Positions 11,019 through 39,538 of a stretch of DNA of 64,000 nucleotides are shown here, piece after piece (the first letter of the stretch is position 1; each line of letters opens with the position of its first letter). Below the pieces are notes generated by a model, which was not told the origin of the DNA, ran no database searches, and saw nothing but the letters and a program-made list of their open reading frames with translations. Origin of the DNA: Butyrivibrio sp. (lineage in GTDB: Bacteria; Bacillota; Clostridia; Lachnospirales; Lachnospiraceae); the NCBI RefSeq assembly GCF_017635265.1, contig NZ_JAGBLU010000004.1:62001-126000 (forward strand). The letters run 5' to 3'. The position numbers and the translations under genes are program-made.

Positions 11019-11282
11019 ATGAATAGAAGTGATGCAATTAAATTAAAGAAAAAGTTAAATGTAACGGATCTGTCTGGTGAAAAAGTGATGATAGATTTTG
11101 ATTCTGGAAAATATTTCATGATCAAAGGGACGGGAAATGATATATGGGATATTATTCAGGAAGAAGTAACAGTTGATGAGATTATAAAAAAGCTGTTGTC
11201 TGAATATGATGTTTCAGAAGAAGTTTGTGAAAAGTCCGTTATGGATTTCCTGGGGAAACTTAAGGAAAACGATTTTATTTGA
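11019..11282 (+). CDS. PqqD-family RiPP recognition element (B1-like)
   Basis: Small PqqD-like protein, 87 aa, with the winged-helix fold used to bind RiPP leader peptides. Visible features are the beta-strand pair (EKVMIDFDSGKYFMIKG), the characteristic T-x-x-D-IWD motif around 39-44 (GTGNDIWDII) and the following helices with VDEIIKKLLSEYDV. In lasso peptide systems the stand-alone B1 protein binds the leader and delivers the precursor to the B2 protease. Here it sits between the priming transferase and the Wzz-BY kinase with AAGGGGG upstream, far from its presumed partners at 23.8 and 37.6 kb. That position links it physically to the polysaccharide operon. Confidence 0.85.
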   Translation: MNRSDAIKLKKKLNVTDLSGEKVMIDFDSGKYFMIKGTGNDIWDIIQEEVTVDEIIKKLLSEYDVSEEVCEKSVMDFLGKLKENDFI

Positions 11283-18410: not shown

Positions 18411-20640
18411 GAACAATAAAAAAATCACAAAGAAAGATCTGGTAATAATTGTACTTAGCGCCATTTCTTTTATTCTTTTAATTTTGATCATTGTTTCATC
18501 AAGACAGACAGATAAGATGGTATCTGATTTCCTTGAAGAAGACAGTAAAGCTAAAAATGATGAAACAGTCGTATCAGAAACCAGCGCTGATTATAGAAGT
18601 ATCACAATTACGGAAGTTAGTTCTGACAAGTGGGTCGAAATATATAATTCAGGCACTGACGCGCTTGATATTTCAAATTTAAAGCTTTTTGTATCTGGAA
18701 AAGAGGCAGGCGCGATTCCTGATGGACAAAGCATAAGAAGTGGATCGTACTATGTCGTGGAAATCGGCACAAATCCTGGAACGCTGGAAAACAATGTGAT
18801 TTCATTAGTGGACAATAAAGGAAGTGAAATTATCTCACTTATTGTACCAAGGCTTTCCGATAATAATAGCTATGGTATAGCTGATTTAGAGAAAAACACC
18901 TGGGGATATATGACTCCCACAAAAGGAAAAGAAAACAGGAATAAAGATGTTGAATATGTAAAGTACGGAGAAATTGGTTTTTCTGCTCCTGGAGGATTTT
19001 ATGATTCTGCATTTCAGCTGGAGCTGACATGCGGAGAAAATGAAAAAATATATTATACGACAGATGGAACAACTCCAACTACTGAGTCTAAACAATATGA
19101 AGATTCAATTAAAATTTCAAACCTGTCATCCAGCAGTTACGTATATGCCTCGAGTGCTCTTCAAAGCAGGTTAAGCACAAATTATGTTCCTGGGTCTGTG
19201 GATAGGGGAATGATAGTAAGAGCCATTAAAACAAGTGCTTCAGGAGAGGTTACAGGTGAAGCAACACAGGCGTTTTATGTAGGTCATAGGTATAACAGTG
19301 ATTATTTAAATATTCCGGTAATTTCAATTGTTACAGATCCGGAAAATCTCTTTGACTATGAAACAGGAATATATGTTTCAGGAAAGACCAGAGAAGACGC
19401 ACTGATTCAGGGATTTGATACTGCAAATGCTGCTAACTTTCTCAATGGCTGGGAAAAAGAGGCGATAATTGAGTACTATGAGCCTTCAAAAGGAAAAACA
19501 ATGGAAGTGGAGGCAAATCTTAGCATCATAGCAGATTCAGTAAGTTTCGACAGGCAAAAAAACTTAAGCCTAAAAATAAAAGATGCTGATTATTCAGAAT
19601 ATGAGGGATCTACGCTTACAGATTATATCTCTGACAATGGGAGAATAAATTTGTCACAGAGCTTTAGTGACAATGAGTTTAAACTCAGAAACTATGTTGT
19701 AAGTGCTTTGGCTCAGGGACTTACGACATCTGCAATGGACGTTTGCCCTTGCATAGTATTCATTGATGGAGAGTATTGGGGGCTTTACTCATTAAAAGCA
19801 TATTATGATGAAAAATATATTAGCAGAAGGTATAACCTTTCAGGTAGAGACGTAATTATTCATGAACGTCAGGAGTACGGGCAGGAATTTAACAGCTTCA
19901 TTGATTATGTTTCACAGACGGATCTTTCTGTACAGGCTAACTATGAAGAAGTTGAAAGTATGCTTGATATAGACAATTTTTTGGAATATGTGTGCCTTAA
20001 CATATTTGTAGGAAAGTCTTCATTTAAGCCATCTTCGGGAACTGCATGGAGGACTGTTTCAAGTGATGGAACAGGGTATGCGGATGGCAGATGGAGATTT
20101 ATGAGTACAGATATGGCCAGTACTTTATACATGTCTGCAAAAGAGACACCTACAATAAATACATATCTTCAACCTGGCATACAAAGCGATCTTTTATTAC
20201 AGTCACTTTTAATGAATGATGAATTCTGTGAAAAACTTGCATCAACTATGGAGAAGATGATAAGTGAGAATTTTGCTAAAGCTTCATGGGATAGCAAAAT
20301 TGATGAACTTGTAAATAGATTAAAGAAGCCCACAATTGCCTCTTATTCAAGGTTTTATGGCAATCTTTCAAATAACTTATATGATCAGGAAGTTGACAAT
20401 ATAGAAGCATATTTACTTGAGAGAGGTCCTTATATTTTAAAATATACTAACGAACTTGCCGAAAATGGCGGAAATATTGAAAGAGCCAGGGAGCTTCTGT
20501 TGACTGAAAGCCAGGCACAGGAGGCTGATAATGAAGTAATTGACGGCAATACTACCCAGGATGATCTTGAAGAAAATACAAATGAGGCAGCTTCTGCAAA
20601 TGAGGAAAGTGCAGAAGTAGAGGATAGTAATAATGGCTGA
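18397..20640 (+). CDS. Divergent CotH-like protein with lamin-tail and chitobiase-type domains
   Basis: Surface protein of 747 aa. It begins with an uncleaved-looking hydrophobic anchor (about 15-32), then a lamin-tail-like domain (ITEVSSDKWVEIYNSG, about 66-160), a CHB_HEX_C-type domain (KIYYTTDGTTPT, about 215) and a CotH-like kinase region (about 310-640). The kinase motif FIDGEYWGLYSLK...YDEKY is clear, but others are altered: the RPSGTDFNRTMF-type segment is reduced to FKLRNYVVSAL, and YFGNDDWPGNN is replaced by FVGKSSFKPSSGT. A final acidic stretch ends the protein. CotH proteins phosphorylate spore-coat or surface proteins; this copy may be a pseudokinase or binding protein. It overlaps the next gene by 8 bases. 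Confidence 0.85.
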   Translation: MRNDKNNKKITKKDLVIIVLSAISFILLILIIVSSRQTDKMVSDFLEEDSKAKNDETVVSETSADYRSITITEVSSDKWVEIYNSGTDALDISNLKLFVSGKEAGAIPDGQSIRSGSYYVVEIGTNPGTLENNVISLVDNKGSEIISLIVPRLSDNNSYGIADLEKNTWGYMTPTKGKENRNKDVEYVKYGEIGFSAPGGFYDSAFQLELTCGENEKIYYTTDGTTPTTESKQYEDSIKISNLSSSSYVYASSALQSRLSTNYVPGSVDRGMIVRAIKTSASGEVTGEATQAFYVGHRYNSDYLNIPVISIVTDPENLFDYETGIYVSGKTREDALIQGFDTANAANFLNGWEKEAIIEYYEPSKGKTMEVEANLSIIADSVSFDRQKNLSLKIKDADYSEYEGSTLTDYISDNGRINLSQSFSDNEFKLRNYVVSALAQGLTTSAMDVCPCIVFIDGEYWGLYSLKAYYDEKYISRRYNLSGRDVIIHERQEYGQEFNSFIDYVSQTDLSVQANYEEVESMLDIDNFLEYVCLNIFVGKSSFKPSSGTAWRTVSSDGTGYADGRWRFMSTDMASTLYMSAKETPTINTYLQPGIQSDLLLQSLLMNDEFCEKLASTMEKMISENFAKASWDSKIDELVNRLKKPTIASYSRFYGNLSNNLYDQEVDNIEAYLLERGPYILKYTNELAENGGNIERARELLLTESQAQEADNEVIDGNTTQDDLEENTNEAASANEESAEVEDSNNG

Positions 20641-21799
20641 GTTTTTAACAGTAAGAGAATATTTAAGAGAACTTGTTTGCGCAACGTTGGAAAAGAGAGA
20701 TCCGGAACCTGTTCCGAAAGATATTTCAATAAGGGACTTGGTAGATATAGGAGCAAAAAGCCAAATACAATACCTGATATACAACTCACTTATCAAAGTG
20801 GTGGATGAACAGAATGAAGCTTATGAGCTTATAAAACAGCGACTTTCTTACAGTACATTCAAGACTTTTGTGCAGGTTATGGCAGCATCAAAGATTGCAG
20901 AGACTTTTGAAAAAAATAATATACGTTTCCAGATTCTTAAAGGAACCATAATGAAAAAGATATATCCTTCTCCGGAAATGAGAGAGATGAGCGATATAGA
21001 TCTTGTGGTCTATGATGAGAATTTGGATAGAGCTGCTGAAGTTTTGGAGAGCATGGGATTTCAAAACCATGGGCTAAAGAAACACCATATGATTTTCTCA
21101 AAGGATAAAAAGCTTGTTGTAGAAGTGCATTGGTGTCTCTTTGATGAGAATGTTGGTCAGATCCAGCATATGTATTTCAAAGACAATTTCAGAGCCAGGC
21201 TTAAAGAAGGAACAGGGTATACCTATGAATTTAGTAAAGAAGATTTCTATGTATACATGATAGCTCATATGGCAAAACACTTTTTTGAGACAGGCTGCGG
21301 AATAAGAAATCTTATTGATATTTATATCTACTTAAATAAGTATGAAAAAGAGATGAATAGAGAATACCTGATATCTGAACTAAAAAAGTGTAAAATTGAT
21401 GAATTTGAAAAAAACATGCGGGAATTATCATACGTATGGCTTGATAACAGGCCTTGCTCAGATTTCCATGAAAAGCTCTTCGCCTATATGCTTGACAGCG
21501 GAATATACGGAAAAACTGAAAATGGCATATGGGGACAGCTTGCAAAAGAAACAACTAATGACAACTCTTCGTTTAAGCTTCATTACTATTTTCCATCAAT
21601 TAAATTCATGAGGGAAAAGTACAAATGGCTTGAAAGATATCCTTTTTTGTTGCCTATAGCGTGGGTAATAAGGGGAGTGAGTGGATTTTCAAATAAACAG
21701 TCAAGGGATCACGCACAGAACTTTGAAAACTCTGGTGATGCCAAGATAAAGGAAATGCTGGATATATATCACAGACTTAATCTTGATTTTAGAAAGTAA
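20633..21799 (+). CDS. Nucleotidyltransferase family protein (lasso-cluster type)
   Basis: Putative nucleotidyltransferase of 388 aa in the NTP_transf_5 group. Visible motifs are FQILKGTIMKKIYPSPEMREMSDIDLVV (by elements: LKG near 102, IYP.P..R, and the metal-binding SDIDLVV near 122-128) and VEVHWCLFDE near 165. In paeninodin-type lasso peptide clusters a member of this family accompanies the kinase and cyclase genes; its role there is unclear. Here it lies three genes before the B2 protease gene. It could modify a peptide, a sugar or a tRNA-like substrate; only family membership is firm. Confidence 0.85.
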   Translation: MAEFLTVREYLRELVCATLEKRDPEPVPKDISIRDLVDIGAKSQIQYLIYNSLIKVVDEQNEAYELIKQRLSYSTFKTFVQVMAASKIAETFEKNNIRFQILKGTIMKKIYPSPEMREMSDIDLVVYDENLDRAAEVLESMGFQNHGLKKHHMIFSKDKKLVVEVHWCLFDENVGQIQHMYFKDNFRARLKEGTGYTYEFSKEDFYVYMIAHMAKHFFETGCGIRNLIDIYIYLNKYEKEMNREYLISELKKCKIDEFEKNMRELSYVWLDNRPCSDFHEKLFAYMLDSGIYGKTENGIWGQLAKETTNDNSSFKLHYYFPSIKFMREKYKWLERYPFLLPIAWVIRGVSGFSNKQSRDHAQNFENSGDAKIKEMLDIYHRLNLDFRK

Positions 21800-21815: not shown

Positions 21816-23831
21816 ATGGATGACATTATTAGTGTTATAGTTCCAATCTACAAAGTTGAAAAATATATAAACAGATGTATAGATTCTATAACCAATCAGA
21901 CATATAAAAACTTAGACATTATCCTTGTGGATGACGGGTCACCGGATTTATGTGGGAAAATCTGTGATGAGTACGCTGATAAAGATAGTCGCATCAGAGT
22001 AATTCATAAAGAGAACGGAGGTCTCTCCAGTGCCAGAAATGTAGCGCTGGATGATTTAAAAGGTAATTGGGTGGTATGTGTAGACAGCGATGATTATGTA
22101 CATCCGGATATGATAAGGAGACTACATAGAGCTGCATGTGATAACAATGCTGAAATTGCCATTTGTTCCCACTACGAAGAAAGAGGTGAGAGGCTTTTCA
22201 TTAACAGCAGAATTGAAGATGAAGTTATTGTATGGGATAAAAAGAGTGCACTTACAAAACTCATATATGATGAAGAAGTTAAAAACTATGCCTGGGGTAA
22301 AATATACAAATCAAGTCTCTTTGATGGAGTGAGATATCCGGATGGCAGAAATTATGAGGATATAGCAACAACGTATCTTCTTTTTGACAAGGCTGAGAGA
22401 ATAGTTAAAATTCCTGATTATCTTTATTACTATCTTATAAGAGAAGACGGAATATCATTTAATAATTCAACCAGCAGTTGGCATAAAGGATGTCATGCCA
22501 CTTGTCTTGGGCAGCAGGAAAGAGCGGACTATTTTAAGAAAAAAGGATATTCCCGGCTTTATGAACTTGCGATGGCAGCTCTTTTGCCATATCTGTATTC
22601 TGATATAAGAAGTGGATACAGTGCAGGTAAGCTTGAAGATGTAAAGGCATCACAAAGATACATAAGAGAAAATCTGGATTCTTTTTACAATAATAAGCTT
22701 ATTTCTGATAAAGATAAGAAAATAATTTCAATTTATTTGAAAAGCGAAAATTACTACAGCGTTTATATTAAAGCCAAAGATGTCTATTCAAAAGTGAATA
22801 AGACGGTAAAAAAGATTAAAAAACGAATTGCTCCACAAAAAAGCAGTTTGGATTTTAAGCTTTCAAAGGGAAAAACAAGAAGAATTATCTATTTTGAATT
22901 GCCATGTTTTGATAACCTTGGAGATCATGCTATCGCATATGTTACAGAGAAGCTGTTATCTGATTTTTCTCAAAAAGATAATGTGTTTCAGCTATATATA
23001 GTTGATGGCTGGGATACAGAAAGAGCTATATCCTCGCTAAAAAAGATTATTTCAGGGGATGATGTGATCGTCTGTCAGGGCGGTGGCAATTTTGGAAGTT
23101 TATATGACTTTGCTGAAGTTTTCAGAAGAAAAGTATTAAAGGCTTTTAAAAACAATAAAATAATAATCATGCCTCAAACACTGTTTTATACAGAGGATGA
23201 GCGTGGGCAAAAAGAACTTTCGCTGGATAAGAAGGCGGTAAATTCGTGTGAAGACATTGTCTTATTTGCCAGGGATAGTAAGTCCTATGATCTTATGAAA
23301 AAGCATTTTGACTGTGAAACAGCACAGCTCCACGATGTTGTATCTATGTTTGAAACAAGTGAGTTTTCCGGAGAAAAAAGAAATGGAATAGTTGTCTGCT
23401 TAAGGTCGGATAAAGAGGGAAAACTTTCTTGTAATGACAAAAAGAAAATTATATCAATTTGTGAAAAGATATCACCGGATGTACATGTTACAGATACCTG
23501 CACGGGGTATGAGTTTGATACAAAGATAAGAAAATCGATACTGGAAAAAAAGTTCAGACTTTGGGGGCAGTCAAAACTCGTTGTTACTGACAGACTACAC
23601 GGAATGATCTTTTCCATAATAACAGGAACCACTTGTATTGTAATAGGGAATAATCATCATAAGGTTTTAGAAACCAGAAAAACCTTTAAGGATTGTGAAT
23701 ATCTGACTTATACCGAATTTGATGATACCTTTGAAGAACAGGTAAAAAAAGTATATAGCAGCAGTAAACATAATGAAGTGATCACATATAGTAAGGATTT
23801 TGAAAAAGTTTTAGATAAAATACAGGGATAA
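21816..23831 (+). CDS. GT2 glycosyltransferase fused to polysaccharide pyruvyltransferase
   Basis: Bifunctional protein of 671 aa. Residues 1-330 are a GT2 transferase: IISVIVPIYKVEKYINRC, ILVDDGSPD and the DXD-type CVDSDDYV (about 90). Residues about 350-671 are a polysaccharide pyruvyltransferase: FELPCFDNLGDHAIA, VIVCQGGGNFGSLY, and VTDRLHGMIFSI. The second domain would attach a pyruvate ketal from PEP to a sugar, adding negative charge to the polymer. A basic Lys-rich linker (about 325-345) joins the domains. The fusion suggests that the sugar added by the first half is the one pyruvylated (inference). Confidence 0.9.
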   Translation: MDDIISVIVPIYKVEKYINRCIDSITNQTYKNLDIILVDDGSPDLCGKICDEYADKDSRIRVIHKENGGLSSARNVALDDLKGNWVVCVDSDDYVHPDMIRRLHRAACDNNAEIAICSHYEERGERLFINSRIEDEVIVWDKKSALTKLIYDEEVKNYAWGKIYKSSLFDGVRYPDGRNYEDIATTYLLFDKAERIVKIPDYLYYYLIREDGISFNNSTSSWHKGCHATCLGQQERADYFKKKGYSRLYELAMAALLPYLYSDIRSGYSAGKLEDVKASQRYIRENLDSFYNNKLISDKDKKIISIYLKSENYYSVYIKAKDVYSKVNKTVKKIKKRIAPQKSSLDFKLSKGKTRRIIYFELPCFDNLGDHAIAYVTEKLLSDFSQKDNVFQLYIVDGWDTERAISSLKKIISGDDVIVCQGGGNFGSLYDFAEVFRRKVLKAFKNNKIIIMPQTLFYTEDERGQKELSLDKKAVNSCEDIVLFARDSKSYDLMKKHFDCETAQLHDVVSMFETSEFSGEKRNGIVVCLRSDKEGKLSCNDKKKIISICEKISPDVHVTDTCTGYEFDTKIRKSILEKKFRLWGQSKLVVTDRLHGMIFSIITGTTCIVIGNNHHKVLETRKTFKDCEYLTYTEFDDTFEEQVKKVYSSSKHNEVITYSKDFEKVLDKIQG

Positions 23832-23832
23832 T

Positions 23833-24282
23833 ATGGGAATTTTAAAAAGATGTTACAGGTTTTTAAGATACAACGAACATAAACTTTTGACCATAAAGGC
23901 ATATATTCTTTCAGCGTATTACAGGTTTTTGGTACTTAATTTCAAAACTGCCAAAATTAAGAAAAGATGGGGCGTTGAGGGTAAAGAATCAGCAACAGAT
24001 GTAGACAGGAGTGTATATGTATATGCCAAAAAGGTTTCATATGCAGTGAATCAGGTCTGCAATAAGACCAAATGGGAAAGTAAATGCTTAATAAGAGCAC
24101 TTGTAGCAAAAAAACTACTTGCAGAAAAAGGTATCGATTCAACTTTGTATCTTGGATGTAAGGAAGAAAATGGGAAAATGGTTGCACATGCCTGGGTGAG
24201 GTGCGGAAGGGCATATATTACTGGTGGACGTGGACAAAACGACGGATACATAGTAGTAGATAAATTTAGGACATGGAAATAA
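23833..24282 (+). CDS. Lasso peptide B2-type transglutaminase-like protease
   Basis: Small protein of 149 aa in the Transglut_core3 family, the leader peptidase (B2 or McjB C-terminal half) of lasso peptide pathways. Catalytic Cys85 lies in ESKCLIRAL and His119 in MVAHAWVRCG; the third residue may be Asp137 (GQNDGYIVV). The length and motif order fit stand-alone B2 proteins of Firmicutes that work with a PqqD-like B1. A basic N-terminus (KRCYRFLRYNEHK) precedes the domain. It starts one base after the pyruvyltransferase stop and ends one base before the exporter gene, so B2 and exporter are expected to be expressed together. Confidence 0.88.
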   Translation: MGILKRCYRFLRYNEHKLLTIKAYILSAYYRFLVLNFKTAKIKKRWGVEGKESATDVDRSVYVYAKKVSYAVNQVCNKTKWESKCLIRALVAKKLLAEKGIDSTLYLGCKEENGKMVAHAWVRCGRAYITGGRGQNDGYIVVDKFRTWK

Positions 24283-24283
24283 A

Positions 24284-25978
24284 ATGGGAAAACTAAAAAA
24301 AATCAAACACTATTGGAATAAAAGAGATGATGCAGGCAGGTATTTTTTATGGATACTTAGCTATACAAAACCTTTTGTACCACAACTGGCTATTCTGATG
24401 ATATTTGATCTTGCTGCCACATTTTTATCTGTTGGCATGGCAGTAATTGGAAAACAGCTGATCGACAGCGCAACAAATGGAAATGTGTCAGAGCTATGGT
24501 CTATCCTTGCTTTGTATGTATTAGTTATTGTAGGTAGTCAGGGCTTATACATAATAAGTGGTCTGTTATCTGTTGTTGTCTACGAAAAGTTTGGCTTTGG
24601 TATCAGAAAAAAAGTATATAGAAGAATACTTGACACATGCTGGCTTGATATTTCCAAATACCACACAGGCGATCTTATGACCAGGCTTACCAGTGATGTC
24701 AGTGCAGTTGCAGATGGTATCTCAAACACAATTCCTACGATATTAAGACTAATTGTAGAATTGTTAGTTACATTTTTTACTTTGGCGTATTATGACTTAA
24801 AACTTGCCCTGTTTGCGCTTTTGGTAGCTCCTATAGCGATGCTTGCCAGCTTGTGGCTTGGTAAAAAATTAAAATATCTTCAGGTTAAAGTTCAGCAGAC
24901 AGAATCCAAGTATCGTTCTTTTATGCAGGAAAGTCTTGCAAATATTTTAATTGAGAAGTCATTTTGTCTTGAGGACTACTCGGAAGAAAGACTGACAGCT
25001 CTTAGAGATGAGAGAATATACTGGGTGCTTAAAAAAAATAGAACAAACATGCTTGCTTCTGCGGCAATGGGATTTTCTTTTCAGCTTGGCTATATAGTGG
25101 CTTTCGCATGGGGAGCAATATGTATAGCAAACAGGACTATAACTTATGGAACAATGACGTTGTTTTTGCAGCTTGTTAACAGAATACAATCACCTATAGT
25201 TAATCTGGCACAGCTGGTTCCAAAGCTTATTTCAATGTTTGCATCTGCCGGGAGAATAATAGAGATTCAGGCTTTACCAAAGGAGGAGTATAAGGGCAAT
25301 TCTATTACAGCCAAAAATGTAGGGGTCAAGGTCACAAGTGTTTCTTTTGGATATGGAGATGAACTTGTTTTTGATGATGCAAATATAGATTTTAAGCCCG
25401 GTGAATTTACGGCGATAGTTGGCAAATCAGGAATTGGTAAGACAACTCTTGTAAGACTCATAATGGCTTTTACCAGCAAAATGGAAGGTAATATTTCTTT
25501 TTACAATGACCTTGGAGAAGAGCTTTTGGCAAGTCCTGATGCCAGACGTATTATAGCTTACGTTCCGCAAGGAAATACACTTTTTAGCGGAACTATTAAA
25601 GAAAATGTTCTCATGGGAAACAAAAATGCTACTGATGAAGAAGTACTGGAGGCTTTACGTGGGGCGGCTGCTTTGGATTTTGTAAATGAGCTCCCAATGG
25701 GAATAGATACGGTAATTGGCGAAAAAGGTGTGGGAATTTCGGAAGGACAGGCACAGCGTATTGCAATTGCAAGAGCACTTGTTAAGAGAGCACCTTTCCT
25801 GATTCTTGATGAAGCTACGTCTTCACTTGATGAAATTACTGAGATTAATGTTTTGAACGGAATAAGAAAATGGACTCCTGCACCTACCTGTATCCTTATA
25901 ACCCACAGGAAATCTGTTCTTGAATATTGTGACAGGGAAATACAAATAGTTAATAAGAAGCTGAGGGAAGCAATATGA
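24284..25978 (+). CDS. ABC exporter (permease-ATPase), probable peptide exporter
   Basis: Full half-transporter of 564 aa with about six membrane helices (about 25-310) and a C-terminal ATPase domain. Motifs: Walker A VGKSGIGKTT (about 383), Q-loop YVPQGN, signature ISEGQAQRIA, Walker B FLILDEATS and the H-loop ITHRKS. It should act as a homodimer. Lasso clusters of this type carry one such exporter (D protein), and the direct position after the B2 gene supports export of the matured peptide. There is no peptidase C39 domain. A role in polysaccharide export is less likely because a flippase is present at 29.8 kb. Confidence 0.9.
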   Translation: MGKLKKIKHYWNKRDDAGRYFLWILSYTKPFVPQLAILMIFDLAATFLSVGMAVIGKQLIDSATNGNVSELWSILALYVLVIVGSQGLYIISGLLSVVVYEKFGFGIRKKVYRRILDTCWLDISKYHTGDLMTRLTSDVSAVADGISNTIPTILRLIVELLVTFFTLAYYDLKLALFALLVAPIAMLASLWLGKKLKYLQVKVQQTESKYRSFMQESLANILIEKSFCLEDYSEERLTALRDERIYWVLKKNRTNMLASAAMGFSFQLGYIVAFAWGAICIANRTITYGTMTLFLQLVNRIQSPIVNLAQLVPKLISMFASAGRIIEIQALPKEEYKGNSITAKNVGVKVTSVSFGYGDELVFDDANIDFKPGEFTAIVGKSGIGKTTLVRLIMAFTSKMEGNISFYNDLGEELLASPDARRIIAYVPQGNTLFSGTIKENVLMGNKNATDEEVLEALRGAAALDFVNELPMGIDTVIGEKGVGISEGQAQRIAIARALVKRAPFLILDEATSSLDEITEINVLNGIRKWTPAPTCILITHRKSVLEYCDREIQIVNKKLREAI

Positions 25979-31343: not shown

Positions 31344-32039
31344 ATGGGTGAGGTATTAGTAAACGTCTATCGAAGTGAATGGAAGTTTTATATAAGTCTT
31401 TCAGAGTATTACTATCTTAAGAGCATGCTTGAACTTGTTATGACACCTGATCCAAACATGGGAGACAGAGGAGAATACTATATCAGAAGTTTATATTTTG
31501 ATTCTGTAGATAACATGGATTACATGACGAAAATGGCTGGGGTAGAAAACAGAAAAAAAATAAGGCTTAGGATATACGATACATCAGATGACAATGTTAA
31601 GCTTGAGGTTAAGAACAGATACAATTCTTATATGCTAAAGGAATCTTTGGTTATCCCAAAGCCGGATGCCCTTTGTCTGATAAATGGAGAGTTTGAAGTT
31701 CTTGATAAATATGAAAAAAAGACTGCTAAAAAAGTGAGAAATCTGATGGAGAATTATATTTATTCTCCCAAAACAATAGTTGATTATGAAAGGGAAGCTT
31801 TTATATATCCCGAACATAATGTAAGAGTTACTTTCGATAAGAATATAAGAGGGGCTGCATCAGACAGGTTATTTGATCCATGCTTAGGGATGACGTCGCT
31901 TTTAAGAGAGCCTGTGATGGTTCTCGAAGTTAAATATAACCAGATTTTACCAAGATTTATCAAAGATGCCATAAGCAGTGGACGGCTGCTTAATTCATCA
32001 ATAAGCAAGTACTGTATGGCAAGAGAATTATTAGGATGA
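31344..32039 (+). CDS. VTC-domain (polyphosphate polymerase-like) protein
   Basis: Protein of 231 aa of the VTC family, related to the catalytic tunnel domain of the yeast vacuolar transporter chaperone. The start VYRSEWKFYIS (RxE-K motif), IRSLYFDSVDN, KIRLRIYD, KLEVKNR, VDYEREAF and VLEVKYN provide the basic and acidic residues that line the triphosphate tunnel. Bacterial members are linked to DUF4956 and CotH genes, as here, and polyphosphate synthesis is proposed but not established. GGAGG lies eight bases before the start. Confidence 0.9.
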   Translation: MGEVLVNVYRSEWKFYISLSEYYYLKSMLELVMTPDPNMGDRGEYYIRSLYFDSVDNMDYMTKMAGVENRKKIRLRIYDTSDDNVKLEVKNRYNSYMLKESLVIPKPDALCLINGEFEVLDKYEKKTAKKVRNLMENYIYSPKTIVDYEREAFIYPEHNVRVTFDKNIRGAASDRLFDPCLGMTSLLREPVMVLEVKYNQILPRFIKDAISSGRLLNSSISKYCMARELLG

Positions 32040-32052
32040 GGGAGAAAATGAA

Positions 32053-32724
32053 ATGAGCAAAAAAGAACTACTTTATTATTTACTAGAAAACAACACAAAT
32101 ATTTCAATTGCGGAGATAGCTATAGGCATTATAATGTCTGTACTTTTGGCATTTTTCATTTACGTTGTATATAAAAAGACATATACAGGTGTAATGTATT
32201 CCAAGAATTTTAATGTTACGCTTTTACTTATAACAATAATAACAACCATGGTAATGATGATTATCGGAAGCAATCTGGCTCTTTCACTTGGAATGGTTGG
32301 TGCCCTTTCAATCATCAGATTCAGGACTGCTGTAAAGGATACAAAAGACAGTGCATATATTTTCTGGGCTATTGCAGTGGGAATTGCCTGTGGATCAGGT
32401 ATATATACGATAGCTATTTTAGGAAGCATCGTAATAGCGCTTATTCTTATATTTATGAACAAGGGAGCATTTGATGATAACACATACCTGGTTATTGTTC
32501 ACGGCACCGACAATCTTGACATCGATAAGGTGAGCGAAGCAGTAGAGAAGAATTGCAAAAAGACAAATCTCAAGATGAAAAATGTCACATCGAAAAGTAT
32601 TGATGTCACATATGAAGTTTCTTTTGTAAAAGGGAAAGATTCTGATCTTGTAAAGGATGTAAAGGACATTGAGGGAATAACAGCTATTAATGTGGTTACG
32701 TATAATGGAGAGATTGCGGGATAA
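32053..32724 (+). CDS. DUF4956 membrane protein
   Basis: Protein of 223 aa with an N-terminal membrane domain of four helices (about 17-130) and a soluble C-terminal domain with an ACT-like beta pattern (TYLVIVHGTDNLD onwards). The conserved loop LGMVGALSIIRFRTAVKD is the family hallmark. DUF4956 proteins occur next to VTC and CotH genes in many bacteria; their function is unknown, possibly transport or signalling with the VTC protein. The gene is 13 bases after the VTC gene and 2 bases before the CotH gene. Confidence 0.9.
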   Translation: MSKKELLYYLLENNTNISIAEIAIGIIMSVLLAFFIYVVYKKTYTGVMYSKNFNVTLLLITIITTMVMMIIGSNLALSLGMVGALSIIRFRTAVKDTKDSAYIFWAIAVGIACGSGIYTIAILGSIVIALILIFMNKGAFDDNTYLVIVHGTDNLDIDKVSEAVEKNCKKTNLKMKNVTSKSIDVTYEVSFVKGKDSDLVKDVKDIEGITAINVVTYNGEIAG

Positions 32725-32726
32725 TT

Positions 32727-34994
32727 ATGAGTAAGCGCCGAAAAAGGATAAAAATAGCAGGCTTTATTGCCATTGGATTTCTTATAGCTATTATGATCTT
32801 TTGTATTTGTGTAGATGTAAGACATATAGGAAAATATCCTGATAATGAGACTGGTGTGACTCTTTGCATAAATGAAGTTATGTATGCAAATCTGGGAATG
32901 ATATTGGATTATGATGGGGATAATTCCGATTGGATAGAAATATATAACTATGGAAAAGAAGCTATAGATTTGAGTGGCTATTCTATCTCAGATCATTCAG
33001 GTAAAAGTAAGAGATGGTTTTTTCCAAAATCGTCTATTGATGCAGGAAAGTATATGATTTTTTGGGCATCCGGAAAAGATAAAGTCACATCAGATGGCGA
33101 AATTCACACTGATTTTATGATTGGTGATTCGGAGACAATCACTCTTTTCGACAGAGACGGAAATGTAATAGACAAACTTTTTGTAAATGAAAACGTAGAT
33201 CCGGGAGTGTCTGTAGGCAGATTATATAAGGAGCCTGATTCTTTTGCACTTCTTTCAAACAGTTCACCGGGAGAAGAGAATAATGCCCAGCCAATATCCT
33301 ATGTGACAAAAACAGACAGTTCTCTTTCTGCCCCTGTTTTGTCCAGAAAAACCGGAGTTTATGATGAAGAGTTTGAACTTTCTATAACTGTGGAAGATGA
33401 TAGTGCAGTGATTCTATATACTTTAGACGGATCAGACCCTACAGCTTCATCTTTAGTGTATACAAAGCCAATTAAAATAACTGACAGGACAGGTGAAGAT
33501 AGTACAATCGCAGATGTTAAGACTACACCCAATTATGAGATGAACTATAGCTGGGAAAACTCATATACCTATAAGGCGACCGTGGTGAAAGCAAGAACAA
33601 TGAAAAATGGAGTACTTTCCGACAAGATCGTGACCGGTTCTTACTTTATTTCACCTGACACGGACTTTAATATTGTCTCACTTACAGTTGACGCAGATAA
33701 ATTATTTGACAAGTGGGACGGGCTATATGTGCCCGGCTCTACTTATTATATTTGGAAAAAATATAATAAAGAGAGTAAAAACAATGTTTATCCTCCGGCA
33801 AACTATGATAGTGATAATAAAGTAAGAGGATATGTTGAAATACTTGATAACAGCGGGAAAGTAATAAGTGATGGCAATGTGGAACTTGGAATAATGGGAG
33901 CTGCATCAAGATCACTTCCTGCAAAAAGCTTAGAGCTTGATATGGCCGATAATAAAAAGGCCTTTGACCCAGGTATTTTTACCTTACTTCCGGAGGAAAG
34001 TACATGCACTGATGAGGGGCTTGATGAAATTGTTCTTCGCCCTTCCGGAACAGATTTTAACAGGACTATGTTTTGCGACATTTTATCTCAGTCCATTGTT
34101 GCAGGTAAAATGAATGTAACCTATATCGGGGCACAGAATGCTGTTTTGTTTATCAACGGCGAGTATTGGGGAATACATAACATAAGAGAAAGCTATGATG
34201 AAGATTATTTTTACAGGCACTACGGCATTGATCCTAAAAATCTTACTATGATCAAGCTAAATACAGATGTAAGCCCTTATACCCCTGAGGTTTCAAATGG
34301 TGATTTATCAGAACTTCAGGATTATTATGAGCTTGTTAAATATGTTCAAAGCCATGACCTTTCTGATGATGACAATTATGAATATGTAAAAAGTCAGGTT
34401 GATATAGATAGTCTGATTGATTATTACATAGCGGAAATGTATTTTGGAAATGATGACTGGCCGGGAAATAACTTCAGAATCTGGCGGGCAGATCAGGAAG
34501 GAAACGACTATGGCGATAATAAGTGGCGTTTTATTTTGTATGATATAGATGATGGATTTCTTTATCCTGAATTTGATACTATCGAATATATCCTTAATGG
34601 GGATTATGACAAAAAAGCCATAGAAGGCATTAATTTAAACTATGATGCTAACAGGGAACTGATTTGCGCACTGATTAAAAATGAAGAGTTCGGGAATGCT
34701 TTTTTTGACAGGTTTGAGGAGTGCCTTAACACTGTTTTTGCAACGGACAACGTTATAGATTATATAGATTCCTTTGAAGATATTTATTCATCTGAAATGG
34801 ATGATCATTTTTTGAGATGGCATACGACTGATGGATGGCTAAAAAGAATTAAGAATATGGTGAAGTATACATATTCTGAAAAGGATCTTTACACATATGA
34901 AAAGTGGGAAGAAAAAGTTGACAAAATGAGACTCTTTGCAGAGGAAAGGCCAGATAATCTCAGGACATTTATTTACAACTACAGAAATGAATAG
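32727..34994 (+). CDS. CotH-family protein kinase with lamin-tail domain
   Basis: Surface-exposed protein kinase-like protein of 755 aa. A single N-terminal membrane anchor (about 9-29) is followed by a lamin-tail domain (INEVMYANLG to about 150), a CHB_HEX_C-type domain (ILYTLDGSDPTASS, about 230) and an intact CotH kinase domain (about 310-700). Conserved motifs are all present: RPSGTDFNRTMFCDIL, FINGEYWGIHNIRESYDEDY, YFGNDDWPGNNFRIWR and WRFILYDIDDGF. CotH phosphorylates Ser-rich coat proteins in Bacillus; the target here may be a surface protein or peptide of this locus. It completes the VTC-DUF4956-CotH triad. Confidence 0.92.
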   Translation: MSKRRKRIKIAGFIAIGFLIAIMIFCICVDVRHIGKYPDNETGVTLCINEVMYANLGMILDYDGDNSDWIEIYNYGKEAIDLSGYSISDHSGKSKRWFFPKSSIDAGKYMIFWASGKDKVTSDGEIHTDFMIGDSETITLFDRDGNVIDKLFVNENVDPGVSVGRLYKEPDSFALLSNSSPGEENNAQPISYVTKTDSSLSAPVLSRKTGVYDEEFELSITVEDDSAVILYTLDGSDPTASSLVYTKPIKITDRTGEDSTIADVKTTPNYEMNYSWENSYTYKATVVKARTMKNGVLSDKIVTGSYFISPDTDFNIVSLTVDADKLFDKWDGLYVPGSTYYIWKKYNKESKNNVYPPANYDSDNKVRGYVEILDNSGKVISDGNVELGIMGAASRSLPAKSLELDMADNKKAFDPGIFTLLPEESTCTDEGLDEIVLRPSGTDFNRTMFCDILSQSIVAGKMNVTYIGAQNAVLFINGEYWGIHNIRESYDEDYFYRHYGIDPKNLTMIKLNTDVSPYTPEVSNGDLSELQDYYELVKYVQSHDLSDDDNYEYVKSQVDIDSLIDYYIAEMYFGNDDWPGNNFRIWRADQEGNDYGDNKWRFILYDIDDGFLYPEFDTIEYILNGDYDKKAIEGINLNYDANRELICALIKNEEFGNAFFDRFEECLNTVFATDNVIDYIDSFEDIYSSEMDDHFLRWHTTDGWLKRIKNMVKYTYSEKDLYTYEKWEEKVDKMRLFAEERPDNLRTFIYNYRNE

Positions 34995-36127: not shown

Positions 36128-36275
36128 ATGGCCGGAAGCGATTTGATATCTGTTATCATGCCTGTATATAACAGGGAAAAATATATAAGAAAAGGAATTT
36201 GATTTGGCTCTTTTTAGATTTGGTGTTGATTTTGATCTGTATTTCTTTGTCAGAAGCATATTGAGAAAGACATGA
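36128..36275 (+). pseudogene. GT2 glycosyltransferase remnant (internal deletion)
   Basis: An ATG at 36128 opens a frame reading MAGSDLISVIMPVYNREKYI that stops at 36200. Shifted by one base, 36195-36275 reads FDLALFRFGVDFDLYFF. The first piece matches the N-terminus of the intact GT2 at 39604 (DLISVIMTVYNRENYV) and the second matches its C-terminal DIALYKFGVGTRS. The gene has thus lost about 280 internal codons, leaving the two ends joined. It marks the left side of the kinase-precursor-cyclase block. Confidence 0.8.
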
Positions 36276-36321
36276 ATAATCAAATAATTGTACTTTTTTA
36301 AGAACGAAAGAGAATGTGAAA

Positions 36322-37239
36322 ATGAGAAAATATAAGCTGTTTGGACTGGTAATTGAATCTGATATTGATTTTTTGCAGCTGATGTTGGCTGACCAAAATG
36401 ATAGTAATGATGTTGTCACAGTTCACGCCGGAAAGATTTCTGAAATAGTTGATAAAGAGCTTGAAGGAGAGAGTGTAAATTATAAAGTGGGACTTGAGTT
36501 TTCCTGTTTTAGAAACAGCTATGGATACTATGTCATAAACGGTGGTAATGAAATTATTTATGAATCTAAAGAGGGAGTGGATTTAGAAGCAATAAAGGCC
36601 TTTATACTTGGCTATTGTATTGCCATGCTGCTACTTCACAAAAGGACACTTTCCATACATTGTAGTGCAGTATGTGATGATAATTCTGACAATGACGGTG
36701 CAATACTTATAACAGGAGAGTCAGGTGCAGGGAAATCTTCGCTTACCAGAAAACTAATCGAATGCGGCTATAAGGTAATGTCAGATGATATTGCAGCGAT
36801 AAAAAAGGTCACTTTGGACGGAGAAGAGAAATGCCTTGTTTATCCGGCATTTCCCTATCAAAAACTTTGTAGGAATGAAGTTGAGAAAAGAAGCTTTGAT
36901 TCTGATGAAATTATCTATATAAATGAAGACAAGGATAAGTTTTTAGTTCCATTAAAAGATACCTTTATAAAGGAGCCTCGCAAGCTTAAAGGAATGATAT
37001 TTTTAACTGTTTGTGATGAAAAAGAAATAAATGTTCAAAGGCTTTCGGGAATTATGCAGCTTATGGCACTTAAGCAGAATCTTTTTCTTCGTAAATTTTA
37101 TGGAGACTGGCAGAAAGATCCAGAGATACTTCAGTTATGTCTTCAAATATCCGAGAAGTGCCCTGTTTATCTTATTAAACGCCCCAAAGAGGGGGATACA
37201 TTATCCGAGATTGCTGAAAAGGTGAAAACGTTATTTTAA
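36322..37239 (+). CDS. HPr kinase-like protein (lasso precursor kinase type)
   Basis: Protein of 305 aa of the HPr-kinase-related group. An N-terminal domain of about 95 residues precedes a P-loop kinase domain with HCSAV, Walker A GESGAGKSS (about 131-139) and the downstream acidic MSDDIAAI (about 155), as in HprK. It lacks a recognisable phosphorylase loop of true HprK. In paeninodin-type lasso clusters a kinase of this family phosphorylates a Ser side chain at the C-terminus of the precursor; the same is inferred here because the precursor and cyclase genes follow directly. The ATG at 36322 has a Shine-Dalgarno-like AAAGAG; a GTG six bases earlier is possible. Confidence 0.85.
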   Translation: MRKYKLFGLVIESDIDFLQLMLADQNDSNDVVTVHAGKISEIVDKELEGESVNYKVGLEFSCFRNSYGYYVINGGNEIIYESKEGVDLEAIKAFILGYCIAMLLLHKRTLSIHCSAVCDDNSDNDGAILITGESGAGKSSLTRKLIECGYKVMSDDIAAIKKVTLDGEEKCLVYPAFPYQKLCRNEVEKRSFDSDEIIYINEDKDKFLVPLKDTFIKEPRKLKGMIFLTVCDEKEINVQRLSGIMQLMALKQNLFLRKFYGDWQKDPEILQLCLQISEKCPVYLIKRPKEGDTLSEIAEKVKTLF

Positions 37240-37340: not shown

Positions 37341-37538
37341 ATGAAAAAGTGGACAAATGCAGAAATTACTGAGCTTAATATCAATGAGACAGAGAATGGT
37401 TTTTTTAATTATGAGGTAGAGTCATTTTTTAATATTCTGACCAATGATTCTAAGAAGGTTACTCCGGATCCAGATCCAAAGCCTACACCAACACCTACTC
37501 CAGATCCAGTAGATCCTGTTGATAATTTTTCAGCATAA
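37341..37538 (+). CDS. Candidate RiPP (lasso-like) precursor peptide, 65 aa
   Basis: Small peptide that I read as the substrate of the lasso-like enzymes. The leader MKKWTNAEITELNINET fits the W..P.(I/L)..L.(I/V)..T pattern of paeninodin-type precursors (W4, I9, L12, I14, T17), with Ala in place of Pro. If Thr17 is at -2, the core starts at Asn19; Glu25 and Glu27 fall at positions 7 and 9, suitable acceptors for a macrolactam. Starting at Gly20, Glu27 is position 8. The core then continues with NILTNDSKK and a Thr/Pro/Asp-rich tail ending DNFSA, with Ser64 next to last. AAGGAG lies nine bases before the ATG. The 46-residue core is unusually long for a lasso peptide. Confidence 0.75.
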   Translation: MKKWTNAEITELNINETENGFFNYEVESFFNILTNDSKKVTPDPDPKPTPTPTPDPVDPVDNFSA

Positions 37539-37548
37539 TGTATGTTAT

Positions 37549-37587
37549 AATAAGCCTTGTCGATATCTCGGCAAGGCTTATTTTTTC
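37549..37587 (+). terminator. Rho-independent terminator after the precursor gene
   Basis: AATAAGCCTTG (37549-37559) pairs perfectly with CAAGGCTTATT (37572-37582) over a 12-base loop, with a T run reaching 37586. It stands between precursor and cyclase genes, so it would yield an abundant short precursor transcript and reduced read-through to the cyclase. Confidence 0.88.
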
Positions 37588-37621: not shown

Positions 37622-39538
37622 ATGAGTAGTATTTATGGCATATTTGTTAATTCATTTAATCAGATAAATATTGAAGAAAAATCACTTTCTGCTTTGAGCA
37701 AATGGAACAGAGCCTACGGAGATTATCTGGATGGAAGAATACTTGAATATCCGGTAGGTATGGGGAGCTTTATTGACAGGTTAAATGATGATATTCCTAA
37801 GAGTAAGGCAATTCTTAAAAACGAAAGAAAAAAAGCTGTTATCGATGCGGTTATATATAACAGAGACGAGCTTATCTGCAAATGTGATACCAAAAGCAAT
37901 ATTCCGGATGAAGAATTACTTTTTGCATATATCTGCAGGTATGGATTTAAAGCATTAAGAGAGGTAAACGGAGACTTTTGTGGTGCAATCTACAATGAGG
38001 ATAGCAACGATCTTGTTTTATTCAGGGATCATATGGGAGTCAGACCTTTATATTACTACTTTGATGATGATTTTGTTTGCTTTTCTACTGATCTTAGAGG
38101 CCTTATTGCAACAGGTAAGGTTGATACAGCTGTTAACGAAGATTGGCTGTATGAAACTATACATGGAAAGTATGCATATAATCAGAAAAATACAGAATTT
38201 CAAAATATCCTCTGTATTACTCCCGGAAGTTTTTGTAACTTTAAGTTTGATAAAAACAAAGTAAGTTTTAATGAGAATGTTTATTGGAAACCAGGACAAA
38301 AGAAAATAAGATTAAAGTCAGATGCACATTATCAGAAGAGACTTCGTGAGCTCATTGAGGATTCGGTTAAAATAAGGCTGGATGCTGTGTCAGGACTTGT
38401 TGGTGCTGAAATGTCGGGTGGCCTTGATTCTGGAGTAATAGATATTCTTATAAAAAGATTTGGACGTGAATGCATTTACTTTTCATGGTCTAAGTCTCCT
38501 GATGAGCTGAAAATGGTAGATAAGGATGAACGTTTAGTAATCCAGGATATCTGCAAACAGGAAAATATAAAATGCAATTACACTAATGCCAATGAAAATT
38601 ATGAAAACATTAAAGCTATGTCTGCAAATTTGAAAAAGAGTGGATTTGTGCTTAATGAAGATGAGAGAGCTGCCTTTAGATACGTTCTTCCTCCGAGTAT
38701 TATGACTATGCCTGTTTGTAGTTCTGCTGAAAGTGTAACAAGTCATGGTGCAAAAGTGATTTTTACCGGACACGGTGGAGATGAAGGCGTAAGTCACAGA
38801 AGCAAACCTTATGAGATGTTTCATAATCATGAATACTATCATTACTTTAGATATATGTATTCAACTACTCATCTTAAAAAGCACAGGATTATAAATACAC
38901 TTAAGATTTGTAAACTTAATCTGATTGATGGGCGCAAAATACTTTTTACACCCCAAAAGGGGCTGGTTAATGATAGCAACATTATAAATAAAGATTTCGC
39001 GTTAAAATACGCTAATTATGAAATGCCTTTATCATATTTTAGTTTTGATCCGATAATGTATATTTTAAATGGTGGAAGCAGAAGCAGACTTGATAACGTA
39101 GCGCTTTTGGGCGCATATTGCAATGTCAGGTATATGGTTCCATACCTTGATTACAGGGTTATTGATTATGCTGTTTCTATACCACGTTATCAGTATCTGC
39201 GCGGACATTTTAACAGGTACATTTTTAGAGAAGCTTTTAAGGATATAATGCCACATTCACTTTATGTTCTAAAAGATAAAATGGAAAACTCTGATTTGAG
39301 TGTCCCCAAGGCTCCTGATTGGTTTATGACTTTTTCTGATGGCATGAAAGATATAATAAAAAGGCTTGATCGTGATTACTGGTCTAAATACATAAATTAT
39401 GACCTTATAGATGACTGGATGAAACGAAGTGAGTTGGAATCAGAGTATAAACCTGAGGATGAAAGCCTTTTGTATGTTCTGTTTATGTGTGCTGAGTTTC
39501 AGAATGTTATTGAGAAAACATATGGGACGTTATATTGA
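37622..39538 (+). CDS. Asparagine-synthetase-like lasso cyclase
   Basis: Protein of 638 aa with the two-domain asparagine synthetase B layout. The N-terminal domain (1-215) has the glutaminase fold (NGDFCGAIYN, FRDHMGVRPLYYY) but begins MSSIYG, so the catalytic Cys2 is absent and it cannot use glutamine. The synthetase domain has the ATP PP-loop SGGLDSG (about 265-271), TGHGGDE (about 382) and the later VPYLDYRVIDY. This is what is known for lasso cyclases (C proteins), which adenylate a Glu/Asp side chain of the core and close the isopeptide ring. It follows the precursor gene and terminator. Confidence 0.88.
   Translation: MSSIYGIFVNSFNQINIEEKSLSALSKWNRAYGDYLDGRILEYPVGMGSFIDRLNDDIPKSKAILKNERKKAVIDAVIYNRDELICKCDTKSNIPDEELLFAYICRYGFKALREVNGDFCGAIYNEDSNDLVLFRDHMGVRPLYYYFDDDFVCFSTDLRGLIATGKVDTAVNEDWLYETIHGKYAYNQKNTEFQNILCITPGSFCNFKFDKNKVSFNENVYWKPGQKKIRLKSDAHYQKRLRELIEDSVKIRLDAVSGLVGAEMSGGLDSGVIDILIKRFGRECIYFSWSKSPDELKMVDKDERLVIQDICKQENIKCNYTNANENYENIKAMSANLKKSGFVLNEDERAAFRYVLPPSIMTMPVCSSAESVTSHGAKVIFTGHGGDEGVSHRSKPYEMFHNHEYYHYFRYMYSTTHLKKHRIINTLKICKLNLIDGRKILFTPQKGLVNDSNIINKDFALKYANYEMPLSYFSFDPIMYILNGGSRSRLDNVALLGAYCNVRYMVPYLDYRVIDYAVSIPRYQYLRGHFNRYIFREAFKDIMPHSLYVLKDKMENSDLSVPKAPDWFMTFSDGMKDIIKRLDRDYWSKYINYDLIDDWMKRSELESEYKPEDESLLYVLFMCAEFQNVIEKTYGTLY

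Follow-up and report, generated by a model that had tools for sequence, protein, structure and literature searches.

The window, by which we mean the whole 64,000-nucleotide stretch of Butyrivibrio DNA analysed here, carries a small open reading frame upstream of a gene for an asparagine-synthetase-like protein. This raises the question of whether the frame encodes the precursor of a lasso-type peptide and, if so, whether that peptide represents a new class or a variant of a known one.

The precursor gene and its parts

The open reading frame (37341-37538, + strand) translates as the 65-residue sequence MKKWTNAEITELNINETENGFFNYEVESFFNILTNDSKKVTPDPDPKPTPTPTPDPVDPVDNFSA, with the tail TPDPDPKPTPTPTPDP. 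It is a genuine gene, as seen from the AAGGAG ribosome site upstream of its ATG and from the homologues that lie beside relatives of the downstream cyclase gene. A previous sequence-only reading had described a 65-residue precursor with a lasso-like leader; the frame translates as described, with Trp4, Ile9, Leu12, Ile14, Thr17, Asn19, Gly20, Glu25 and Glu27 all present, and the leader positions hold across the 34 precursors collected below. Trp4 of the WxxP motif is in place and residue 7, where the motif has Pro, is Ala; across the 34 precursors this residue is Pro in 25 and Ala in 9. The gene is followed by a hairpin, and the parts are as follows:

37341-37538 (+): precursor gene, 65 amino acids (ORF translation; 14-row alignment A1; 34-row table)
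37341-37397 (+): leader, residues 1-19, with W4, L12 and T17 (alignments), the predicted cleavage falling after Asn19
37398-37421 (+): predicted macrolactam ring, Gly20-Glu27, core residues 1-8 (Gly20 in 32/34, Glu27 in 34/34)
37422-37448 (+): post-ring segment, residues 28-36, richer in hydrophobic residues; candidate threading and plug segment (composition over 34 precursors)
37449-37535 (+): polar Pro/Asp/Thr tail ending FSA, with Ser64 as candidate phosphorylation site (Ser is terminal in 32/34 precursors, the window one excepted)
37549-37586 (+): hairpin and T-run between precursor and cyclase, a terminator or attenuator (z -4.9)

Similar hairpins between precursor and cyclase were found at 19 of 33 loci (window included, the divergent locus L047 left out) versus 11 of 1650 single-base shuffles, and such a hairpin would fit a precursor made in excess over the enzyme. 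The terminator-like stem of the window and the 18 other loci has similar letters, e.g. AGCCTTGTC, in several species. The window precursor gave no match to the paeninodin (PadeA) family model NF033524 of NCBIfam (cut-off 27 bits), and the best of four other precursors of the same type, hereafter Glu8, was that of L039 with 13.1 bits, below the cut-off.

Conservation among precursors beside related cyclases

A strong match to the window cyclase (E below 1e-80) was found in 9 of 79 genomes of the genus (its own included), at 11 places, and a match at E up to 1e-40 in 5 of 396 genomes sampled from the rest of the family. The first set comprised 16 places including the window, a hit in G019 (an 87-residue fragment) being left out. 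A small ORF with a leader of the same type lies beside 14 of the 16 cyclases, in divergent orientation in L047, and the remaining two cyclases are cut by contig ends. All 14 precursors have M1, K2, W4, T17, G20 and E27 in common.

The held-out set was drawn from a profile scan of named genomes. Of the 45 loci found, 40 belong to the cyclase family (E 7e-78 or better); 14 of the 40 repeat the first set, which leaves 26 held-out loci. Precursors were selected by an automatic rule that took the nearest upstream ORF on leader criteria only (Thr17, and Trp or Phe near residue 4); the identity of residue 27 played no part in the selection. The rule found a precursor upstream at 20 of the 26 loci, and Glu27 was present in all 20. 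That of L139, which has Glu27 and ends SGK, was missed since a longer cyclase frame overlapped it; with this one the total is 21 of 26. As for other loci, ORFs with Glu at core residue 8 lie ahead of the kinase in L155 and downstream in L156, in L153 and L157 (the cyclase of the latter is cut) the sole ORFs next to the cyclase lie downstream and are without Glu8, and the L128 stretch starts 156 bases before the cyclase. Extra leader-type ORFs were seen with Glu at residue 8 in L047, L130 (two) and L149 (two), and without it in L043, L052, L140 and L133, the last having Asp28 and standing beside a canonical cyclase (our label for one with an Asp-type precursor and a position beside the peptidase gene B2).

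The 34 precursors selected by the rule, 20 of them from held-out loci, are related rows (L126 and L158 are near copies in the cyclase). Glu27 is present in 34/34, Gly20 in 32/34 (missing in L149 and L164) and a terminal Ser in 32/34; in the leader, W4 is found in 33/34, I or V at residue 9 in 30/34, L12 in 31/34 and I, L or V at residue 14 in 32/34. Residues 21-26 are variable, the top letter reaching at most 12/34. When the small genes beside homologous cyclases are aligned, as had been proposed for the window gene, the leader and the Glu are thus seen to be kept and the Pro-rich tail is not.

A second family of small ORFs, at L043:5156-5314 (-), L047:8736-8897 (-) and L171:6738 (+), starts MKNW.KPE, ends in Ser and has no Gly20, with Glu27 in one of the three; it lies near a window-type kinase and is perhaps a linear kinase substrate. 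At L045 and L046, in two species, the Glu8 pair stands between two genes that we take to be pyruvate formate-lyase and its activase (recognised by eye), and the stretch has no match to the polysaccharide proteins of the window.

Ring register

With Gly20 as the first core residue, Glu27 is the eighth, and the predicted ring is Gly20-Glu27, i.e. Gly1-Glu8, cleavage site and ring closure both being predicted. The ring-forming pair suggested by the sequence-only reading was Asn19 or Gly20 with Glu25 or Glu27: Gly20 with Glu27 stands, whereas Asn19 and Glu25 fall away, Glu25 being rejected as ring acid with its presence in 5 of 34 precursors. Among precursors beside canonical cyclases, counted by hand with three leader-unlike chance ORFs left out, Asp28 is present in 14 of 17 (in L182 together with Glu27) and Asp27 in 2, and the remaining precursor has neither. 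Asp at residue 28 is absent from all 34 Glu8 precursors. Published predictions for Butyrivibrio, in the accessible text of PMC7533575, have Gly at +1, Asp at 8-9 and Thr at -3.

The cyclase

37622-39538 (+): lasso-type cyclase, Asn-synthetase-like, Glu8 group (PF00733 6.6e-19, over cut-off; NF033535; tree)

In a tree of 52 proteins, 40 Glu8-side cyclases fell on one side of a branch with support 100/99, nine canonical cyclases were separate (100/100) and three Asn-synthetase-like proteins of the window genome formed a third group; this tree is unrooted and has long branches between the groups, so that it does not settle the relation among them. The best NCBIfam match of the window cyclase was the lasso cyclase model NF033535 (E 1.4e-49, 169 bits vs a cut-off of 525). 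The same model was the best hit, again under its cut-off, for the eight other cyclases tried, four canonical with 158-232 bits and four from the Glu8 side with 134-196 bits; since all of them miss the cut-off, the score does not tell the two groups apart. The low score as a sign against lasso membership is weakened accordingly, canonical cyclases being low too. A PDB profile search with the cyclase returned Asn synthetases, a hydroxyamidotransferase and beta-lactam synthetase, and no entry named lasso cyclase. Five loci (L133, L136, L052, L051 and L163) have a canonical and a Glu8 cyclase together, and in L133 an Asp-type and a Glu8 precursor both lie between the two cyclases.

The tail and the kinase

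36316-37239 (+): HprK-like kinase, Walker A motif GESGAGKS (PF07475 1.8e-6, 28.0 bits, below the cut-off of 33.3; tree)

The unusual length of the core had been pointed out before and was borne out: from Gly20 the predicted window core has 46 residues, 38 of them after the ring, and the 34 Glu8 cores range from 21 to 64 residues (median 43.5), with 13-56 after the ring. Over the 34 precursors, V, I, L, F, W, Y and M make up 36% of residues 28-36 versus 13% further on, and from residue 37 on 80% of the letters are P, T, S, D, E, G, N, K or Q. The Pro content of that part varies from 0 to 31%, the window precursor being the highest. Because Pro content and tail length vary this much, Pro is not a shared feature of the tails and their length is widely variable. 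The proposal that the Pro/Asp tail is a conserved, wall-spanning stalk is not supported, and as a family trait it is rejected; that the stalk is rigid is speculation with nothing to support it. At L049 an ordinary lasso cyclase has beside it a precursor whose tail is Pro-rich and ends LS, and this canonical-type case weakens a tie between the tail type and the Glu8 ring.

With regard to the end of the peptide, the final residue is Ser in 32 of 34 precursors (LS in 15). The window precursor ends FSA, with Ser penultimate, and phosphorylation of the window peptide itself is less sure for this reason. The kinase tree has no single Glu8 clade (9 changes); the group that includes the window kinase has 24 rows with support 85/79, which is not a strong branch. 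A Ser-ended precursor lies near the kinase in 20 of 23 rows of this group vs 2 of 12 adjacent rows (Fisher 8e-5), counted by hand with one row without a readable precursor dropped from each set (24 and 13) and with a separate four-row group (L149, L150, L155 and L156) left out; the pairing is with the nearest precursor, so that the partner is not proven, and in L126 and L158 the nearest is an Asp-type precursor ending EES. The window-kinase group also takes in two kinases that adjoin canonical cyclases, those of L133 and L187, where the precursors end SIS and VLS. In our reading of these sequences, kinase type would follow the terminal Ser rather than the ring type.

Just ahead of the kinase, at 36128-36280 of the window, a glycosyltransferase-like frame read by eye has a start and an end without a middle, i.e. 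a decayed gene. Upstream, at 31344-34994 within the polysaccharide locus, genes for VTC-domain, DUF4956 and CotH proteins stand in a row; the full set recurs in L183 and L049, the first two in L177. The VTC domain is of the polyphosphate-polymerase type, and its closeness to a Ser kinase is suggestive.

Pathway genes and their possible use in trans

Four further pathway genes were recognised in the window:

11019-11282 (+): RRE (B1, PqqD-like), 87 amino acids (NF033536 81.7 bits, over the cut-off of 80)
20633-21799 (+): NTP_transf_5 protein, PsmN-like candidate (PF14907 2.1e-52)
23833-24282 (+): leader peptidase B2, transglutaminase-like (PF13471 1.7e-19)
24284-25978 (+): ABC exporter (PF00664 and PF00005)

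Together with the HprK-like kinase they are scattered over 28 kb of a polysaccharide locus that contains glycosyltransferase, CotH and TagF-like genes and, named by eye, what we take to be sugar transferase, Wzz and flippase genes. An initial absence of the RRE, read from the list of ORFs of at least 110 residues, was wrong, the RRE being an 87-residue ORF. Copies of the ABC exporter, 77-81% identical, adjoin B2 in seven genomes of the genus (G006, G010, G012, G014, G019, G024 and G039). At 21816-23831 the window has a GT2 glycosyltransferase fused with a polysaccharide pyruvyl transferase.

Elsewhere in the genus (L170, L177, L179 and L183), the corresponding stretch has a canonical cyclase and an Asp-type precursor beside B2. 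The window genome (G000, 4.15 Mb, 88% complete) showed neither a canonical cyclase-precursor pair of this kind nor, at E up to 1, a further precursor of the Glu8 family. For these reasons the Glu8 pair is the sole visible client of the pathway in this incomplete assembly. A lasso RRE match (E below 1e-20) was found in all nine genomes with a strong cyclase match, over the curated cut-off in four, and B2 was over its cut-off in 9/9; an RRE match was found in 15 of the 70 other genomes of the genus (Fisher 6e-6 vs 9/9), a count that mixes linked and unlinked cases in related genomes.

In five of the nine genomes, about 31 kb or more separates the pair from RRE and B2. In G006 it lies about 880 kb from them on one 3.55 Mb contig, and in G010, G021, G024 and G039 the two are on different contigs, with minimum separations of about 46, 66, 68 and 31 kb calculated from the distances to contig ends. 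Pair, RRE and B2 share one locus within about 31 kb in G000 and G014; G012, whose pair is at the edge of a contig, and G054 count in neither group. The unlinked pairs therefore suggest, by inference, that Glu8 precursor-cyclase pairs use RRE and B2 in trans. A Glu8 precursor lies on contig C3 of G012 as well (L173), where the 16 kb stretch has no cyclase match. In G021, two Cys/Pro-rich ORFs with a W-type leader (L181:4083 and 12630, +) lie near RRE, B2, kinase and exporter, and the stretch has no cyclase match.

Core diversification

L126 and L158, from two separate MAGs, are identical in DNA through residue 20 of the precursor, and their cyclases differ in 13 of 647 codons. Of the 34 codons of their cores 20 differ, 17 of them non-synonymously and 3 synonymously; Gly20, Glu27 and the end EES are kept. 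Such changing cores with a near-fixed leader and cyclase suggest that recognition is under strong selection, on the evidence of one pair of loci, where selection and the exchange of a core cassette are not told apart.

Proposed pathway and alternative explanations

The window has an N-terminal core Gly with an acidic residue at core position 7-9 (Gly20 and Glu27), an Asn-synthetase-like cyclase over the PF00733 cut-off, and an RRE and a B2 protease. We consider it likely that the ORF codes for a paeninodin-like lasso-type RiPP whose precursors make up a separate subfamily, Glu8, and propose the following path. The RRE (11019) would bind the W4-containing leader and B2 (23833) would cut before Gly20, after which the cyclase (37622) would activate Glu27 with ATP and join it to the Gly20 amine, giving an eight-residue ring. 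The hydrophobic residues after the ring would thread and plug it, the HprK-like kinase (36316) would phosphorylate the C-terminal Ser, the NTP_transf_5 protein may add further decoration, and the ABC protein would export the product.

A different register, in which the ring begins at Asn19 and has nine residues (Asn1-Glu9), has in its favour that Thr then stands at the usual -2, the rule in earlier reported lasso precursors (accessible text of PMC10368454), whereas with Gly20 as residue 1 the window Thr is at -3. We hold it to be unlikely, as eight different residues (N, D, G, H, S, Y, K and F) occur at position 19, against Gly in 32/34 at position 20; the Gly1-Glu8 register is chosen because a start at residue 19, which gives a nine-residue ring here, gives a ten-residue ring to Asp28 in the canonical relatives. 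That the ORF arose by chance or has decayed and yields no product is brought to mind by the low-complexity tail, but 33 homologues in register upstream of homologous cyclases, the ribosome site and the downstream hairpin make this vanishingly improbable.

The product could also be a linear, C-terminally phosphorylated and perhaps glycosylated LPP-like peptide, with the cyclase-like enzyme acting elsewhere, e.g. amidating a polysaccharide or a side chain. The polysaccharide-locus setting, the kinase and NTP_transf_5 genes, which LPPs share (PMC13381572, in the part available), and the cyclase score below the lasso cut-off would agree with this. The chance of it seems slim, however: the cyclase accompanies the precursor where the stretch has no match to window-kinase or polysaccharide proteins (L040, L045 and L046), an invariant Gly/Glu pair at ring spacing would have no evident purpose in a linear peptide, and LPPs, as the available part of PMC13381572 describes them, have YxxP leaders and are without a macrolactam cyclase. 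To return to the Glu8 lasso reading, it can be extended to a modular system, which we put forward as improbable: movable self-contained pairs would borrow one RRE, peptidase and exporter that the exopolysaccharide locus of the cell encodes, the long polar tails would be charged at the terminal Ser by the matching kinase and coupled to surface sugar, and a variable threaded ring would be displayed on the cell surface, not released.

Comparison with known systems

Paeninodin-like clusters in capsule loci of Bacilli and lasso clusters in Butyrivibrio are already known from the accessible literature, and paeninodin-like lasso peptides have been predicted in Butyrivibrio and Lachnospira (PMC7533575, in the part available). 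Several of these published Butyrivibrio precursors are identical to ordinary lasso precursors of the genus found here, and predicted cores of rumen bacteria reach 44 residues in Table 3 of that paper. The published set, as far as its accessible text goes, has in common with the window a leader of the WxxP type (the window one with Ala at the Pro position), Thr at -3 from Gly1, split RRE and B2, an HprK-like kinase, an NTP transferase, an ABC gene and long cores. It differs in that its ring acid is Asp at 8-9 and not Glu8, that the cyclases here form a separate group and that the Glu8 precursor-cyclase pair often stands alone. Its main text has no occurrence of VCB2006, AE3009 or MC2013, strains that carry Glu8 pairs, and we found no description of a Glu8 paeninodin-like family in open-licence PMC papers, supplements aside.

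In paeninodin itself the kinase PadeK phosphorylates the C-terminal Ser, and in pseudomycoidin PsmN adds a hexose to phospho-Ser (accessible part of PMC9266682). The window resembles paeninodin (PadeA/PadeK) and pseudomycoidin (PsmK/PsmN) in its kinase, predicted to act on a C-terminal Ser, and pseudomycoidin also in the NTP transferase (PMC9266682, same part). Unlike the paeninodin-type motif [GA]x7D (as given in the available text of PMC13289728), the window precursor has Glu8, in place of the Asp9 ring acid of the paeninodin family, and ends Ser-Ala. LPP systems, characterised by a YxxP leader and a SipW-like peptidase and without a macrolactam cyclase, share with the window RRE, HprK-like kinase, NTP transferase and exporter, and often lie in a capsule locus (PMC13381572, in the part available); the window differs from them in its cyclase and Trp leader, and none of the hits obtained for 16 scanned window proteins was a SipW-like signal peptidase.

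The sequence-only reading had considered a new class. Since the known paeninodin-like RRE, B2, kinase and exporter are present and long cores had already been predicted, we conclude that Glu8 is a new, coherent branch within the paeninodin-like lasso peptides and not a new class, with ring, threading and phosphate as predicted features. The Gx7D rule of the Hungate1000 survey, as stated in its accessible text, excludes this branch by design, and pairs with RRE and B2 at a distance pass for incomplete clusters; should use in trans be confirmed, the lasso gene content of gut Lachnospiraceae is underestimated. Pandonodin, said to have the longest lasso tail with 18 of 33 residues (accessible text of PMC13352647), is likewise long-tailed, versus 38 of 46 residues after the ring in the predicted window core, and the predicted Glu8 cores of up to 64 residues would far exceed the 33 of this longest-tailed characterised lasso peptide.
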